From: Terriglobia bacterium
GTDB lineage: Bacteria > Acidobacteriota > Terriglobia > Acidiferrales > UBA7541
Length of the DNA: 64,000 bases
NCBI GenBank assembly: GCA_023512135.1
Contig: JAIMAG010000013.1
Coordinates: 1 to 64,000, forward strand
Direction of reading: 5' to 3'
A program made the position numbers and the translations under genes. Below the pieces are notes generated by a model. It did not search any database. It saw only the letters and a list, made by a program, of their open reading frames with translations, and was not told the origin of the DNA. Of this stretch, positions 56,324 to 62,371 are shown in pieces (the first letter of the stretch is position 1; each line of letters opens with the position of its first letter).

Positions 56324-58543
56324 CTACCACTCGCGAGTGAGCACGGCGACGATGCGGGCCAGCGCCTCGGCGTCGCGCACATCAATCACTTCACCCGGGG
56401 AGTGCGAATACCGCAAAGGCCAGCCGATGGGAATGTCCACCGTGCCGTAGCGCAGAAAAGCTGCGCCATCATTGCCACCGCCGGTCACGCCGAACTGTAC
56501 GGGAATGCTGTTTCGCTGCGCCAGGGCAACAATCCGGTCCACCAGCTCCCGCCGCACAATATTGGAATTATCCACCGCGCGGATGACGAAGCCCTTGCCG
56601 ACCTGTCCGTACCCGAAGCGTTTTTCTTCCAGCGGAGAATCCGAGCTGACGAAGGTGTCCACAGCGAACACGTAATCCGGGGCGCGCCCCTGCTGCGCCA
56701 GTCGTGTAGCCAGTGCGAACGCTCCGCGCAGGCCCACTTCTTCTTCCGTCACCCAGGCCAGCAGGATTTCGCGGCCGGCTAGATTCGGTCCCAGCTCCCA
56801 TGCCGCGGCGATCAGCGCGGCCGAGCCGACACGGTCGTCGAAGCTGCGCCCGCTGGCCCTCGTGCCGAACAGCGGACGATATTTCTTCGGCACGGTCAGC
56901 GAATCGCCCACCCGGATGCCCAGCTCGGCCACCTGTTCCGGGGTACGCGCTCCCACATCCACCCGCAGCACCTGAGCGGGTCCGCGCGGCCAGTCGAATC
57001 CCGGTTCTTCCCAGCCCGCAGGCAGCTCCATCACGGCTGCGCGCGGCCCGTGCGCCGTGTGCACCTGCAGGGCGTGACCCGCAAAAAATTGCAGAATGCC
57101 GCCCCCGCGCGACCGCACCACCAGCCGGCCGTCGGGCGCAATGGACTCCACCACGTAGCCGATTTCGTCCATGTGCGCGACAAACGCAATCCGCGGCACG
57201 CGGGAACCGGCGGGCGCACCCCCGATGCGGAGAAGCAGATTCCCGGCGTCATCGGTTTCCGGCCTGGCCCACGGCGGCAGCAGTTCGGCGATACGTTCCC
57301 GCACCGGGCCTTCGTGCCCGCTCACGCCGCAGGTTTCCACGAGCCACCGAAGCAGTTCGGTCATCGAAGGAGCGCGCGTTGGCCGAACAAACTGCTCTTC
57401 CCTGCTGGAGCGAACAGTGCCCGTGGGGCCTGCTTTCACTTCACCGAGGGCATACGCCGTCAGCAGATTGGTCAGCTGCTCGGCGTCTGCTACGTCCAGC
57501 ACCTCGGCGGGCGTCACCGGCCAGGCGATGGGAATGGCCAGATGGACGACACGAGCGGGCAGCTCAGGGCCGCCGGTATAACTGGCCCGTGGCAGCGGCG
57601 CCGCCGGCACCGGCCGGAGCGGAATGTTGTGTGCTGCGGCGAGCGCAGCCATCTCGGCGGCAAAACCGACCGGCTCGGCTCCCGCCCGCTCCACGGCCAG
57701 CAGCACGCCGGCACCCGGCTCCGGCACTGTTCCGGGGCCCGTCCCGCGCGGACGCAGCCGGCCGATGTACACCAGCTCATCGGCGCGGATGTGCTGCGTC
57801 AGCCGGTCCAGCCCGCGTGCGTTCGTCCATTGCTGCGCAAGAAACGCTATCGTCAAAGTGCCGCGCAAACGCGTGCGATCCAGTCGCCGCAACAGCTCGA
57901 GCAGCGCGGCAGCACCGAAGCGGTCGCCCAGATACGGCGCGGTCACCTTGCCGAAGCCCATCGCGAGCAGCCGCCGTTCGAGCGCGATCGGATCCAGCAG
58001 ACTCACGCCGGCCCTGCGAACGTCCTCGGCGCTGGCCGCGCCGATGTCCACGTACACTTCGTCGGGATGGTTGACCCGCGGCGGATTCTGCCGCCCGCCC
58101 TGCAGATGCGTGGAGAGCCCGGCGACGACGCCGGAAATCCACCGGCCCTCCCGGGTGTGAATCACCACCGGCTGCGCCGCATGGAGCTGCTCGAACAGCG
58201 GATGGACGCCGGACTGGGGCAGTCGTTGCACGCGCAGGTAGCCGTCGTCGGTGATGTGGCTGACGATGTAGCCCGGTTCGTCCACCGGCGCGACCACGAG
58301 CCGATGGGGCGTGCCGCGGCCCAGGGTGACGTAGAGCGTGCCGAGATTGTCCTGCTCGAGCGCGTAGCCGGCCGCGCGAGCGCGTTCGCGAATCTTTTCG
58401 CCCAGCGCCTGCTCGTAGCCGGCCACCGCCGGCGTTTCCACCAACGCCGCCAGGTCTTCACGCAGGTTCTGTGCCGCAGCGGGCACGGCGAACACGATTG
58501 CCAACAGAATGAGAAGGCGCGATACGAATATGGTGCGAGACAT
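56324..58543 (-). CDS. Tandem M42-type aminopeptidase with a degenerate N-terminal half
   Basis: A 739-residue exported protein: a signal peptide (VSRLLILLAIVFAVPAAAQ) and two copies of the M42 glutamyl-aminopeptidase/cellulase fold. The C-terminal copy (about 390-739) keeps all dimetal ligands: His 457 in VAHMDEIG, Asp 569 in SFDDRVG, Glu 601/602 in TEEEVGLRG, Asp 629 in AVDTF and His 714 in YSHSPGEV. The N-terminal copy (about 26-370) has the same order of segments with every ligand lost: VAPVDEPG (84-91), YLGDRFG, LAQQWTNARG, VYIGRL and IAWPVTPAEV. The N-half is probably a structural or regulatory pseudo-enzyme. GGGGGAG precedes ATG 58543. The P1 peptidase gene diverges from it. Confidence 0.85.
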   Translation of the reverse strand: MSRTIFVSRLLILLAIVFAVPAAAQNLREDLAALVETPAVAGYEQALGEKIRERARAAGYALEQDNLGTLYVTLGRGTPHRLVVAPVDEPGYIVSHITDDGYLRVQRLPQSGVHPLFEQLHAAQPVVIHTREGRWISGVVAGLSTHLQGGRQNPPRVNHPDEVYVDIGAASAEDVRRAGVSLLDPIALERRLLAMGFGKVTAPYLGDRFGAAALLELLRRLDRTRLRGTLTIAFLAQQWTNARGLDRLTQHIRADELVYIGRLRPRGTGPGTVPEPGAGVLLAVERAGAEPVGFAAEMAALAAAHNIPLRPVPAAPLPRASYTGGPELPARVVHLAIPIAWPVTPAEVLDVADAEQLTNLLTAYALGEVKAGPTGTVRSSREEQFVRPTRAPSMTELLRWLVETCGVSGHEGPVRERIAELLPPWARPETDDAGNLLLRIGGAPAGSRVPRIAFVAHMDEIGYVVESIAPDGRLVVRSRGGGILQFFAGHALQVHTAHGPRAAVMELPAGWEEPGFDWPRGPAQVLRVDVGARTPEQVAELGIRVGDSLTVPKKYRPLFGTRASGRSFDDRVGSAALIAAAWELGPNLAGREILLAWVTEEEVGLRGAFALATRLAQQGRAPDYVFAVDTFVSSDSPLEEKRFGYGQVGKGFVIRAVDNSNIVRRELVDRIVALAQRNSIPVQFGVTGGGNDGAAFLRYGTVDIPIGWPLRYSHSPGEVIDVRDAEALARIVAVLTREW

Positions 58544-58672
58544 CTCTCCCCCTTCTCCGTTCTTCCCAACGGAAGCCGTCAATCTATCCCGCGAAGAGCG
58601 GACGCGCAACCTCGGCGCCCTCTGCCCGCGGTGTTTCGCAGGACTCCCCTGCCGGGCTCCCGCCGATGGACG

Positions 58673-58678
58673 TACAAT
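58673..58678 (+). promoter_or_regulatory. -10 element of the P1 peptidase gene
   Basis: TACAAT at 58673-58678, predicted start near 58685, leader 34 bases with GGAGG before ATG 58719. On the other strand TAGATT at 58581-58586 would serve the M42 gene. Confidence 0.45.
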
Positions 58679-58718
58679 CTCCCGGCAGAGTTTCTATCTT
58701 CCCGACGGAGGCAAGGCG

Positions 58719-59897
58719 ATGCGCTGGCTCGGATTTCTCATCCTGGCAGGCGGCTTGGCAGGTGGAGCGTGGACGTGGATGGCAGCGGGTGCGCCACAGG
58801 AAATCCGTGAAGCAGAACTGCAGGCGAGCGAACGGCCCCGCGCTCGGGACCTCGGAATCGCTCCCGGCTCGTTCGAGCCGGGAATGTGGAATGCCATCAC
58901 CGACGTGCCCGGCGTGCGCGTCGGCCACGCGACGGTCATCGCCGGCGACGATGTCCGCACCGGCGTCACCGCCATCCTTCCCCACGCGGGCAATCTGTAT
59001 CGCGAAAAAGTCGCCGCCGCATTGCACATCGCCAACGCCTTCGGCAAGCTGGTCGGCTCGACGCAGGTCGCCGAGCTCGGCCAGTTGGAAACGCCCATCC
59101 TGCTCACGAACACGCTCAGCGTGTGGGACGCTGCGGCTGCGCTGGCCGAATGGATGCTCGCGCTGCCGGGCAACGAATCCGTTCGATCGATCAATCCCGT
59201 GGTCGGCGAAACCAACGACGGCTGGCTGAACGACATCCGCGGCCGGCACGTGCGCGCCGAGCACGTGCGCCAGGCGCTGACCTCGGCCAGCGACGGCCCG
59301 GTCGCAGAAGGCTCGGTTGGCGCCGGCACCGGCACGATCGCCTTCGGCTGGAAAGGAGGCATCGGCACCAGCTCCCGCCGCGTTCGCCTGGGCGGCGCCG
59401 CCAGCAGGCCCCATACGGTCGGTGTGCTCGTGCAGACGAATTACGGCGGACGGCTGACCATCGCCGGCATCCCGGTGTGGCAGCACGTGCCGCCGCCGCG
59501 CCGCGAGGACAGCGGCGATGGCTCCTGCATGATTGTGGTCGCCACCGACGCCCCGCTCGACGCCCGACAGCTGCGCCGGCTGGCTGCGCGTGCCATCCTC
59601 GGCATGGCCCGCACCGGCGCTTCAGGCAGCCACGGCAGCGGCGATTACGTGATTGCCTTCTCGACCACGAACCGCATTCGCAGCGCCGCGTCCGGCGACG
59701 AAGTTCCCACTGCTGCCGTCGAGCTGCTGCGCGAGGAACGGCTTTCTCCCCTGCTGCTCGCAGTCAGCGACGCCACCGAAGAAGCCATCTACAACTCGCT
59801 GTTTCGCGCCACCACCGTGCGTGGCCGCTCCGGACACACTGCAGAAGCGATTCCGATTGCTCCGGTGCGGGAACTTTTGCGGAAGTACGGCCGCTAG
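58719..59897 (+). CDS. Exported P1-family peptidase (DmpA/BapA-like)
   Basis: A 392-residue protein of the self-processing L-aminopeptidase/D-esterase family. It has an N-terminal signal or anchor (LGFLILAGGLAGGAWTWMA), ITDVPGVRVGHATVIAGDDV, TGVTAILPHAGN, the Asn in LTNTLSVWDAAAAL, EGSVGAGTGTIAFGWKGGIG and the autocleavage/nucleophile Ser in GDGSCMIVVATDAPL. Family members cleave themselves before that Ser and release N-terminal D- or beta-amino acids from short peptides. ATG 58719 is set by GGAGG. With the M42, M28 and S41-type genes it adds to a large exported peptidase set. Confidence 0.92.
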   Translation: MRWLGFLILAGGLAGGAWTWMAAGAPQEIREAELQASERPRARDLGIAPGSFEPGMWNAITDVPGVRVGHATVIAGDDVRTGVTAILPHAGNLYREKVAAALHIANAFGKLVGSTQVAELGQLETPILLTNTLSVWDAAAALAEWMLALPGNESVRSINPVVGETNDGWLNDIRGRHVRAEHVRQALTSASDGPVAEGSVGAGTGTIAFGWKGGIGTSSRRVRLGGAASRPHTVGVLVQTNYGGRLTIAGIPVWQHVPPPRREDSGDGSCMIVVATDAPLDARQLRRLAARAILGMARTGASGSHGSGDYVIAFSTTNRIRSAASGDEVPTAAVELLREERLSPLLLAVSDATEEAIYNSLFRATTVRGRSGHTAEAIPIAPVRELLRKYGR

Positions 59898-59915: not shown

Positions 59916-61550
59916 TCATCCCTTGCAAAGCTCTTCGGTCAGCACCTCGCGCCTGCGTTCGGCCAGGCGTGAGCAGTGCTCGAGCGACCAGCGGTACAGC
60001 TTGCCGCTCAATGCAACGAGAACAACAAAAACCGCGCCCGCCAGCCACAAGGTCTGCGGACGGAATGCCAGAAAGAAAACGGGAGCACAGATCCCCAGCA
60101 CGACCAACTGCACTGCCAGGATCACCAGAACGGTCATGCCCGATTGACGCTGCCGGAATTTGCCAAAGTCGAACCGCTGCGGATAGGTCAGCGACATGTA
60201 GTTTCCAGCCGAAAAGTGCACCAGCATGACGAAGGCCATGGCCGCCAGCGTCAGCAGCGTCAGGGCCGCACGCGGCAGCCCTGCATACCAGCCGATCCAC
60301 AGCCAGATGACAACGAACTCCGCGACCCAGATCATCCCCAGCAGCAGGTTTTTCCCGAGTAACACGATGCGGAACCGTATCGGCGCGATCAGAAAAAACT
60401 GTATGCCCCGCCCATCAAAGGCAAAACTGTTGTAGCCAATCGGGGCAAGCACCAGGACCGCATACCCAACCGCCATCGGAAACAGCACATCCGGCCCCCG
60501 GCTCAGAACCCCGGGCTTCTCTTTGGAGGTCAACGCAAAGGTGAGAAATACCAGAAAGAACAGCGGGGTGAACAGATTCAGCAATAGGAAGCCGTTTCGC
60601 AACAAGTAGCGCACTTCCTTGGCGAACACCGCGGCGACCTGTTGGGAAACTCCGGGCAGCTCCCAGAGGAACTTGCCGGCAGCTTTTTCTTCCACTGCCT
60701 GCGCAGAGTGCACGGTGGCCGTTTCGCTCAAATCCTCCCCGCGGTATTGCGCCAGCAGCCTGCGTCGCAACAGCCAGCCGCAGCCGACCCCGTATCCACA
60801 GAGTCCCAGCAGCGCACCCAGCCACGCGCCGGTGCTCCCGCCACCCGCCACCACAGCTCCCACCAGTCCGGGAGGCAGAATCTGTGTCCAGTCGTAGACC
60901 TGTTGCAGCAGCGGCGCAAGGTTTTTTCCCCAACGCTCCGCCGCCAGACCCACAAACTGCAGACCGAACATCGTCAGCACAAAAATCAGGAAGAGCGCTT
61001 CCCGCGTCCGGCGTCGCGCCAGGAGCCGCTCCAACCAGAGGTAGAGCAACCGGTTCAACAACAGCGTGCACAGCGCAAACCCCAGCAGCAGCAGAGCGTT
61101 CGCCGCCAACCCCTGCGGCGCGGCCAATCCTACGCCGACCAGCACTCCACCCAGCCAGACCAGCGCAATGATCCCCGCCGGATCGAATATCCCATAGGCC
61201 AGATGCAGCAGAAAAAAAGCGCGGAAACGCAGCGGCAGCACCAGAAGCCCCCGGAGACTGGTGCCAGAAGCAAATGCTGCGATCAGCACGGGCAGCAGTT
61301 GCCAGGCCAGAAAAATGGCCCAGAGCAGAACGGTGAGCAGTTGCGGGGAGCCTCTGCGCACGGCGGCATAGCTGCCCGCGGCGAATCCCAGCGCGCCGCC
61401 CAGCGCCACCAGTCCCCCGAGCCCGGTCACCAGCAGCGTGCCGATCAGCTCGAGCTGCTTTCGTGGACTGCGCAGACTGTTACGCAGCAGCCGCCATCGC
61501 AACCCGGCCACCAACCAAACCTGCTGCCACACGCCCGAACCGGCTCTCAT
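59916..61550 (-). CDS. ABC transporter membrane protein (ABC-2/YhhJ-like)
   Basis: A 544-residue polytopic protein with about 12-14 membrane helices in two sets separated by a cytosolic segment at about 255-305 (RRLLAQYRGEDLSETATVHS). Its start overlaps the ATPase stop by 4 bases (ATGA), so the two make one transporter. Residues such as SPRKQLELIGTLLVTG and KEVRYLLRNGFLLLNLFTP are typical for ABC exporters of unknown substrate in this family. It converges on the P1 peptidase gene with an 18-base gap. Confidence 0.85.
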   Translation of the reverse strand: MRAGSGVWQQVWLVAGLRWRLLRNSLRSPRKQLELIGTLLVTGLGGLVALGGALGFAAGSYAAVRRGSPQLLTVLLWAIFLAWQLLPVLIAAFASGTSLRGLLVLPLRFRAFFLLHLAYGIFDPAGIIALVWLGGVLVGVGLAAPQGLAANALLLLGFALCTLLLNRLLYLWLERLLARRRTREALFLIFVLTMFGLQFVGLAAERWGKNLAPLLQQVYDWTQILPPGLVGAVVAGGGSTGAWLGALLGLCGYGVGCGWLLRRRLLAQYRGEDLSETATVHSAQAVEEKAAGKFLWELPGVSQQVAAVFAKEVRYLLRNGFLLLNLFTPLFFLVFLTFALTSKEKPGVLSRGPDVLFPMAVGYAVLVLAPIGYNSFAFDGRGIQFFLIAPIRFRIVLLGKNLLLGMIWVAEFVVIWLWIGWYAGLPRAALTLLTLAAMAFVMLVHFSAGNYMSLTYPQRFDFGKFRQRQSGMTVLVILAVQLVVLGICAPVFFLAFRPQTLWLAGAVFVVLVALSGKLYRWSLEHCSRLAERRREVLTEELCKG

Positions 61551-62371
61551 GCCAGCCAGGAAAGCTCCTGTTCTGTAGCGCGCGTACCGCCCACGATTTC
61601 CAGGAAAATTTGCTCCAGGGTCAGTTTCTGGCCCGTCGGGCGGACTGCTTCGGCACCCGTCGCTGCATCGGCAATCTTCGATTCCACCCCGGAACGCAAT
61701 TCTTCGATCGAGCCCTGCGCGACCAGTTTTCCCTTGTGAATGATGGCTACATGGCTGCAGAGCCGCTCGACGATTTCCAGCACATGCGAAGTCAGGAAAA
61801 TCGTGGCCCCGCGCGCGATCATCCGGTTCAGCATGTTTTTCAGTGTGCCTGCTGCGATGGCGTCCACGCCCTCGAATGGCTCGTCGAGAAACAGAATCTT
61901 CGGTCCGTGGATGACGGCTGCGGCTAAGGCCAGTTTCTTTTTCATACCGTGGGAATAATCGGCGATCAGGGTCTTCGGACGATCGGCCAGTTGCATGAAC
62001 TCCAGCAGCTCCTGCGTGCGCTGTGCTGCGGTTGCGCGGTCCAGCCCATACATGCGCGCGACGAAATTCAAGTACTCGGAGCCGGTCAGCCGGTCGAACA
62101 GCGCCAGGCCTTCGGGCACCACGCCAATCTGCCGTTTCACTTCGACCGGGTCCTGCTGCAGGTCGGTGCCCAGAAGCACGATGCGCCCGGCGGTCGGTTC
62201 CAACAGCCCGGTCAGCATGCGGATCGTTGTGGATTTGCCGGCGCCGTTCGGTCCAAGAAACCCGAAAAACTGGCCGGCGCCGACCGCCAAGTTGACCTGG
62301 TCCACCGCCACCAACTCGCCGAACCGGCGCGTCAGATTTTCCGTAACGATGGCGTAGGAATTTGTCGTCAT
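61547..62371 (-). CDS. ABC transporter ATP-binding protein
   Basis: A 274-residue ATPase with Walker A GPNGAGKSTTIRML, the signature YSHGMKKKLALAAA (a YSHGM variant of LSGGQ, common in ABC-2 exporters), Walker B KILFLDEPFEGVD, and the switch His in FLTSHVLEIVERL. It pairs with the downstream membrane protein. The substrate cannot be inferred; a drug, lipid or polysaccharide exporter is possible. Confidence 0.95.
   Translation of the reverse strand: MTTNSYAIVTENLTRRFGELVAVDQVNLAVGAGQFFGFLGPNGAGKSTTIRMLTGLLEPTAGRIVLLGTDLQQDPVEVKRQIGVVPEGLALFDRLTGSEYLNFVARMYGLDRATAAQRTQELLEFMQLADRPKTLIADYSHGMKKKLALAAAVIHGPKILFLDEPFEGVDAIAAGTLKNMLNRMIARGATIFLTSHVLEIVERLCSHVAIIHKGKLVAQGSIEELRSGVESKIADAATGAEAVRPTGQKLTLEQIFLEIVGGTRATEQELSWLA

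Follow-up and report, generated by a model that had tools for sequence, protein, structure and literature searches.

A tandem M42 peptidase whose inactive and intact halves divide the loop histidine and the metal ligands between them

A gene of a Terriglobia bacterium raises the question of what one half of a double-length M42 peptidase does once it has lost every metal ligand. A sequence-only reading of the window, by which we mean the whole 64,000-nucleotide stretch of DNA that was analysed, had described the gene product as an exported tandem M42 peptidase with a dead N-terminal half. It took this to imply an assembly different from that of ordinary M42 enzymes, which it described as normally single-domain subunits of 12-mers. 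The description of ordinary M42 enzymes agrees with PMC4220976.

Gene, domains and neighbourhood

The open reading frame runs from 58543 to 56324 on the minus strand, starts with ATG, has no internal stops and encodes 739 amino acids. Its parts are as follows:

56324..58543, minus: coding sequence of the tandem pseudo-M42/M42 protein, 739 aa (ORF and translation)
58469..58543, minus: signal-peptide-like N-terminus, residues 1-25, ending in AAAQ (by eye; relatives have similar leaders)
57446..58474, minus: N-half, inactive M42 domain, about residues 24-366 (PF05343; model and fold match)
57371..57445, minus: inter-domain linker, about residues 367-391 (low pLDDT, evolves fast)
56327..57370, minus: C-half, intact M42 domain, about residues 392-739 (PF05343; PhTET1 Z 41.1)

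Residues 1-25 resemble a Sec signal peptide and, together with the leaders of relatives, are in keeping with the export that had been proposed. When each half was searched alone, the N-half matched PF05343 (Peptidase_M42) with E=6.3e-31 over profile positions 1-291 of 292 and the C-half matched it with E=1.1e-53, which bears out the tandem M42 architecture. The tandem gene is the sole M42 of its genome (2.83 Mb, 97% complete) above the Pfam cut-off, and no second M42 that might serve as a tandem partner was found there above that cut-off.

An AlphaFold2 model of the full chain, based on an alignment of 26 tandem sequences, has a pLDDT of 88.3 and a pTM of 0.87, the latter suggesting a defined mutual orientation of the halves. 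In a fold search with the whole model, the C-half matches PhTET1 with Z 41.1 (rows spanning 391-739). Because the C-half filled this search, the N-half was predicted and searched alone (35 sequences; pLDDT 90.6, pTM 0.90), and its model matches PhTET1 with Z 36.3 and an rmsd of 2.5 A over 316 aligned positions (Foldseek E 3.9e-31). M18 chains match the halves with Z of about 24-27, compared with 36-41 for the best M42 matches. A non-M42 fold for the N-half, the outcome against which this structure check had been set beforehand, is ruled out by the PF05343 match, the PhTET1 Z score and the Foldseek E value.

The adjoining gene, divergent from the tandem gene, encodes an S58 (DmpA/P1-like) peptidase with a leader peptide (58509-59897, plus strand). 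Upstream, on the same strand as the tandem gene, lie an ABC ATPase and a membrane protein with a weak 12TM_1 match (59916-62371, minus strand), and in 10 loci (L032, L033, L036-L042, L050) the upstream flank contains ABC homologues at 1-3 kb. Nearby genes encode an S58 peptidase, an asparaginase and a beta-eliminating lyase, which is weak evidence that the neighbourhood suits the use of peptides or amino acids.

Distribution, origin and selection

A search with the N-half matched 55 of 151 genomes at E<=1e-48 (own genome included). In a scan of the phylum, the N-profile matched 64 of 396 genomes at 1e-25, a cut-off that also admits ordinary M42s; at least 36 of these 396 genomes, counting the window's own, have N-type domains. 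From the 64 matched genomes we examined 40 regions together with 14 further regions that hold single M42s, leaving out G233, which is split over two contigs, and most of the singles of genus g120. A scan of genome contigs yielded 62 loci, with pairs from Gemmatimonadota and Planctomycetota among them; the pair occurs across these two phyla and Acidobacteriota. Identical proteins in both collections were counted once, and 9 short fragments were dropped from the alignment (L065, L055 twice, L050, L048, L045, L022, L012, L007). Rows were assigned to N or C according to either their profile score or their resemblance to the two halves of the window's protein, a labelling under which an active N-like partner could have been classed elsewhere.

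A homologue search for the same fusion was also successful: among the 82 loci with both domains, 54 encode them in one ORF and 28 in two adjacent genes. The arrangement switches between fused and split at least 6 times on the tree of N rows, and domain order is reversed in two loci (L135 and L136). In each of 18 split pairs examined from the phylum scan, both partners carry a strongly hydrophobic leader (best 12-residue mean hydropathy at least 2.0), and the stretch preceding the C domain scores 0.4-1.5 in the 4 fused loci examined; this is a crude hydropathy measure rather than a signal-peptide prediction. The leaders of the remaining split pairs are alike by eye. Some split-pair leaders carry a lipobox-like Cys; in L127 and L132 the leader concerned is that of the active C partner, which suggests that some split pairs include a lipoprotein. 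Because the pair recurs across three phyla, whether fused or adjacent, the N-half is not a product of decay.

Some loci in the collection call for separate comment. An Anaerotruncus MAG (L085:4764-7069) has two adjacent single-type M42 genes, both with all ligands and the loop His, and these fall outside the clade. The fused pair of a Gammaproteobacteria MAG (L049:5001-7259) nests among Acidobacteriota rows in the N part of the tree as well as in the C part, a placement that points to horizontal transfer or a binning error. The locus L032:5001-7220 is labelled Bacillota, probably wrongly, because it encodes the same protein as the window's same-genus relative (G001/L003), and this protein groups with Acidobacteriota.

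In a tree of 98 rows, the N halves form one clade (100/100). When the ligand and loop columns were masked (N 70, C 68 and single M42s 45 rows), N, C and single M42s formed separate groups with SH-aLRT of 99, 98 and 99, and N, C and the solitary relative L159 grouped together with SH-aLRT of 99. Therefore, N and C are sisters that arose by duplication. The mean depth in the tree is 2.40 for N and 1.60 for C, so N evolves faster; this depth tree, like the masked tree, omits the same-family rows L003-L027 and L029-L031. L159 branches at the base of the pair and joins C with support of only 88-91, as a single sequence, and its lineage could have lost N secondarily. No further solitary relatives of L159 were found, its order comprising one genome.

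To compare selection on the two halves, dN/dS was calculated with our own NG86 script between the window and the same-genus L032. The values are 0.13 for the N-half and 0.105 for the C-half, with 0.52 for the signal peptide and a linker that is saturated at synonymous sites. These ratios indicate that the inactive half is under purifying selection. A sequencing or pseudogene artefact is ruled out by the same layout in dozens of genomes and by an N-half dN/dS well below 1.

Reciprocal retention and loss of metal ligands and loop histidine

Ligand positions were read from an alignment to PhTET1 and MJ0555, and ligand roles in M42 were taken from PMC8993905. All of the following assignments rest on this alignment:

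58286..58288, minus: P86, replaces the M2 His ligand in the N-half
57926..57928, minus: G206, replaces the bridging Asp in the N-half
57827..57832, minus: Q238-W239, replace the catalytic Glu and the M1 Glu in the N-half
57761..57763, minus: G261, replaces the M2 Asp in the N-half
57515..57517, minus: V343, replaces the M1 His ligand in the N-half
57173..57175, minus: H457, metal ligand (M2) in the C-half
56837..56839, minus: D569, bridging metal ligand in the C-half
56738..56743, minus: E601, catalytic base, and E602, metal ligand (M1), in the C-half
56657..56659, minus: D629, metal ligand (M2) in the C-half
56402..56404, minus: H714, metal ligand (M1) in the C-half

The sequence-only reading had each of these losses right, including its motif examples (AHMDE to APVDE, EEE to QQW, YSHSP to AWPVT), and was equally right about the intact C-half, which has the M42 profile, all five metal ligands and the catalytic Glu. 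One second-shell residue, D88 (the Asp of HxD), is retained in the N-half. As judged from its sequence, the N-half is a non-peptidase homologue of M42, without any of the five ligands and without the base.

The inactive partners of other loci (88 distinct rows, of which 79 are gap-free) have lost ligands to varying extents. Most retain none (54 of the gap-free rows), 15 retain one, 5 retain two and 5 retain three, the maximum in any of the 79. Partial decay is seen as HDDQVDG and HDDQLDG (L150, L163) and as HDAELDH (L161, L162, L065), each with 3/5 ligands. All 82 gap-free rows of active partners retain 5/5; in this count L159 is included in C, though it is set apart in later counts. Because every homologous inactive partner examined shows ligand loss, the loss goes beyond chance.

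The pocket of the N-half might have been rebuilt (QQW, GDR, VGRL) for a peptide, glycan or other ligand, independently of the C-half site, and the window's nearer relatives do conserve replacements such as Q-Q-W and G-D-R. However, the replacements vary between lineages and are therefore not common to all: at the M1 Glu column, N partners have W in 36, L in 9 and R in 8 of 88 rows, with other residues in the rest, and it is the loop His that is universal. We regard such a new function as very improbable.

Published work assigns a trans role to this loop His. In the M18 enzyme hDNPEP, His170 of the opposing subunit completes the site and the His170Phe mutant is inactive; by the authors' inference, M42 uses a trans His in the same way (PMC3472314). 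In PhTET2, mutation of the mobile-loop residue H123 weakens substrate binding, and H123 may sit near the adjacent subunit's site; across M42 structures, the distance from this His to the active site ranges from about 4 to more than 20 A (PMC8993905). Therefore, we inspected the loop column in the pair:

58106..58108, minus: H146, loop His (SxH) of the N-half, aligned with the PPH His of M42 (PhTET2 H123; hDNPEP His170)
57011..57013, minus: W511, replaces the loop His in the C-half (alignment)

The loop His is present in 87 of 87 non-gap rows of inactive N partners and in 2 of 84 active C partners, where W (32) and Y (28) prevail. It is common in M42 without strictly defining the family (41 of 45 single M42s), and 14 of 14 extra single M42s from the same phylum have both the metal ligands and the loop His, as does the solitary exported relative L159 in its one chain. 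Counted per locus with both domains (n=82), the His is in N alone in 79, in both in 2, and gapped in 1. The two exceptions are L153 and L154, both of one genus, in which the C partner as well as the N partner has His at this column; several C loops have a His elsewhere in the loop, off the column. The fragment L055_C, which has a shifted frame, was treated as a single M42 in the ligand count and as C in the loop-His count and in the column screen described below.

A screen of the 55 columns conserved in at least 75% of the 45 single M42s gave the same picture. In fourteen columns C keeps the residue and N has lost it, and these include the base and four of the five ligands, the fifth being a mixed D/E column in single M42s and thus outside that set. 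The opposite holds for only 2 columns, namely the loop His and the Gln preceding the catalytic Glu. The N-half thus appears to retain what its partner's site needs and to have lost what its own site needs, and the C-half the converse. As N and C are each one clade, their losses may go back to few events, and the row counts for loop and ligands are not independent tests.

Given the purifying selection on the N-half and an invariant loop His that is missing from the intact half, the N-half is not simply dead: the earlier label holds for its ligands and base, and fails for the half as a whole. One might suppose that it is a scaffold only, completing the M42 dimer or a 12-domain shell and gating access, with the loop His serving folding or packing. 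M42 dimers are indeed the building blocks of the tetrahedron (PMC4220976), the full-chain pTM of 0.87 suggests a defined arrangement, and the other residues conserved in N are mostly Gly and Asp, of a structural type. A scaffold leaves unexplained, however, why an N-invariant loop His should be among just 2 of 55 columns kept by N and lost by C, and single M42s retain the loop His alongside the metals. We therefore consider a pure scaffold unlikely. It is more doubtful still, indeed very unlikely, that the N-half is a regulator or inhibitor that masks or regulates the C-half, prodomain-like, pending the arrival of peptide or metal. Other metallopeptidase families do have inactive paralogues that regulate or assist active ones (PMC11266112), but the split form is co-encoded with both parts apparently exported, an arrangement more in keeping with a standing partner than with a prodomain, and the loss of the loop His from C would go unexplained.

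A putative composite active site

The anatomy, fold, single origin, selection and reciprocal retention and loss are established here. Quite probably, the locus encodes an exported M42 aminopeptidase in which an asymmetric pair has one composite active site, with metals from the C-half and the loop His from the N-half; the reach of H146 into the C-half site, the aminopeptidase product and the oligomer are what we infer. The starting point would be an exported single-domain M42 gene that was duplicated. In the M42 homodimer, each site would combine its own subunit's metals with the other subunit's loop His. After duplication, the site made of C metals and N loop His would have been retained, and the site made of N metals and C loop His would have decayed from both sides, N losing its metal ligands and base and C its loop His, which Trp or Tyr has replaced in most cases. 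Both genes would have stayed side by side with separate export signals, and many lineages would have merged them into one ORF, a merger that would fix a 1:1 stoichiometry. The N-half would then act as a pseudopeptidase activator, its H146 binding substrate or the transition state in the C-half site, and would also provide a dimer face. Of the earlier proposal of a dead half in a different assembly, half is right: the pattern fits an ordinary M42 dimer made asymmetric and fused.

The structure models can be compared at the loop. In the model of the N-half alone, residues 144-146 (S-T-H) are the sole segment with pLDDT below 50, the loop blocks being at 50 and 63, and in the full-chain model the same stretch has pLDDT of 75-78. 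This comparison, between models that rest on different alignments, is consistent with a loop that becomes more ordered in the presence of the C-half.

The M42 TETs (PhTET1/2/3, TmPep1050, MJ0555) resemble the pair in the fold of both halves, the metal site of the C-half and the loop His of the N-half. The known TETs are single-domain, however, with metals and loop His in one chain, whereas the pair divides them over two domains or genes and looks exported. Completion of the site by a partner's loop His, the use predicted here, is known from hDNPEP (PMC3472314), which is homomeric and for which the available text describes no inactive partner; its fold match to the halves (Z of about 27) is below that of M42. 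In M16, the MPP alpha/beta and fused M16A/M16C systems combine inactive and active paralogous domains, separate or fused, and the inactive part is required for function (PMC11266112), but this is another family with an HxxEH metal motif, and MPP-alpha gives a glycine-rich loop rather than one trans His. Carboxypeptidase D (M14) is an exported tandem metallopeptidase with an inactive third domain (PMC11266112); it too belongs to another family, and the available text describes no composite site. YtoP and YsdC of Bacillus form a heteromeric paralogue pair with in-cell crosslinks (PMC10090944) and both match the two halves as M42 folds, but they are separate single-domain proteins, and that text, as available, describes no inactive member. 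DapE (M20) needs a dimerization domain for catalysis, with a His proposed in substrate binding (PMC4012986); that domain is inserted into the catalytic chain itself and is no inactive paralogue.

In the open-access literature we found no report of an M42 pseudoenzyme or an M42 tandem, and 'm42' does not occur in the available text of the pseudopeptidase review PMC11266112; a literature search for composite sites in M20 gave nothing relevant. The reciprocal retention and loss of metals and loop His between the halves is new here.

We think it probable that these pairs represent a widespread exported class in which duplication made a symmetric, loop-swapped M42 dimer asymmetric, with a single composite site; evolution would thereby record the trans action of the loop His, and the pseudopeptidase half would serve as an obligate catalytic cofactor domain. 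If so, the pair would be a natural complementation experiment on an open question in M42 biochemistry: does the mobile loop His (PhTET2 H123) act in the active site of its own subunit or in that of the neighbour? The pair would likewise represent a further class of pseudopeptidase, in which an inactive paralogue donates one catalytic residue, and the split, fused and partly decayed intermediates of that class would still be living.
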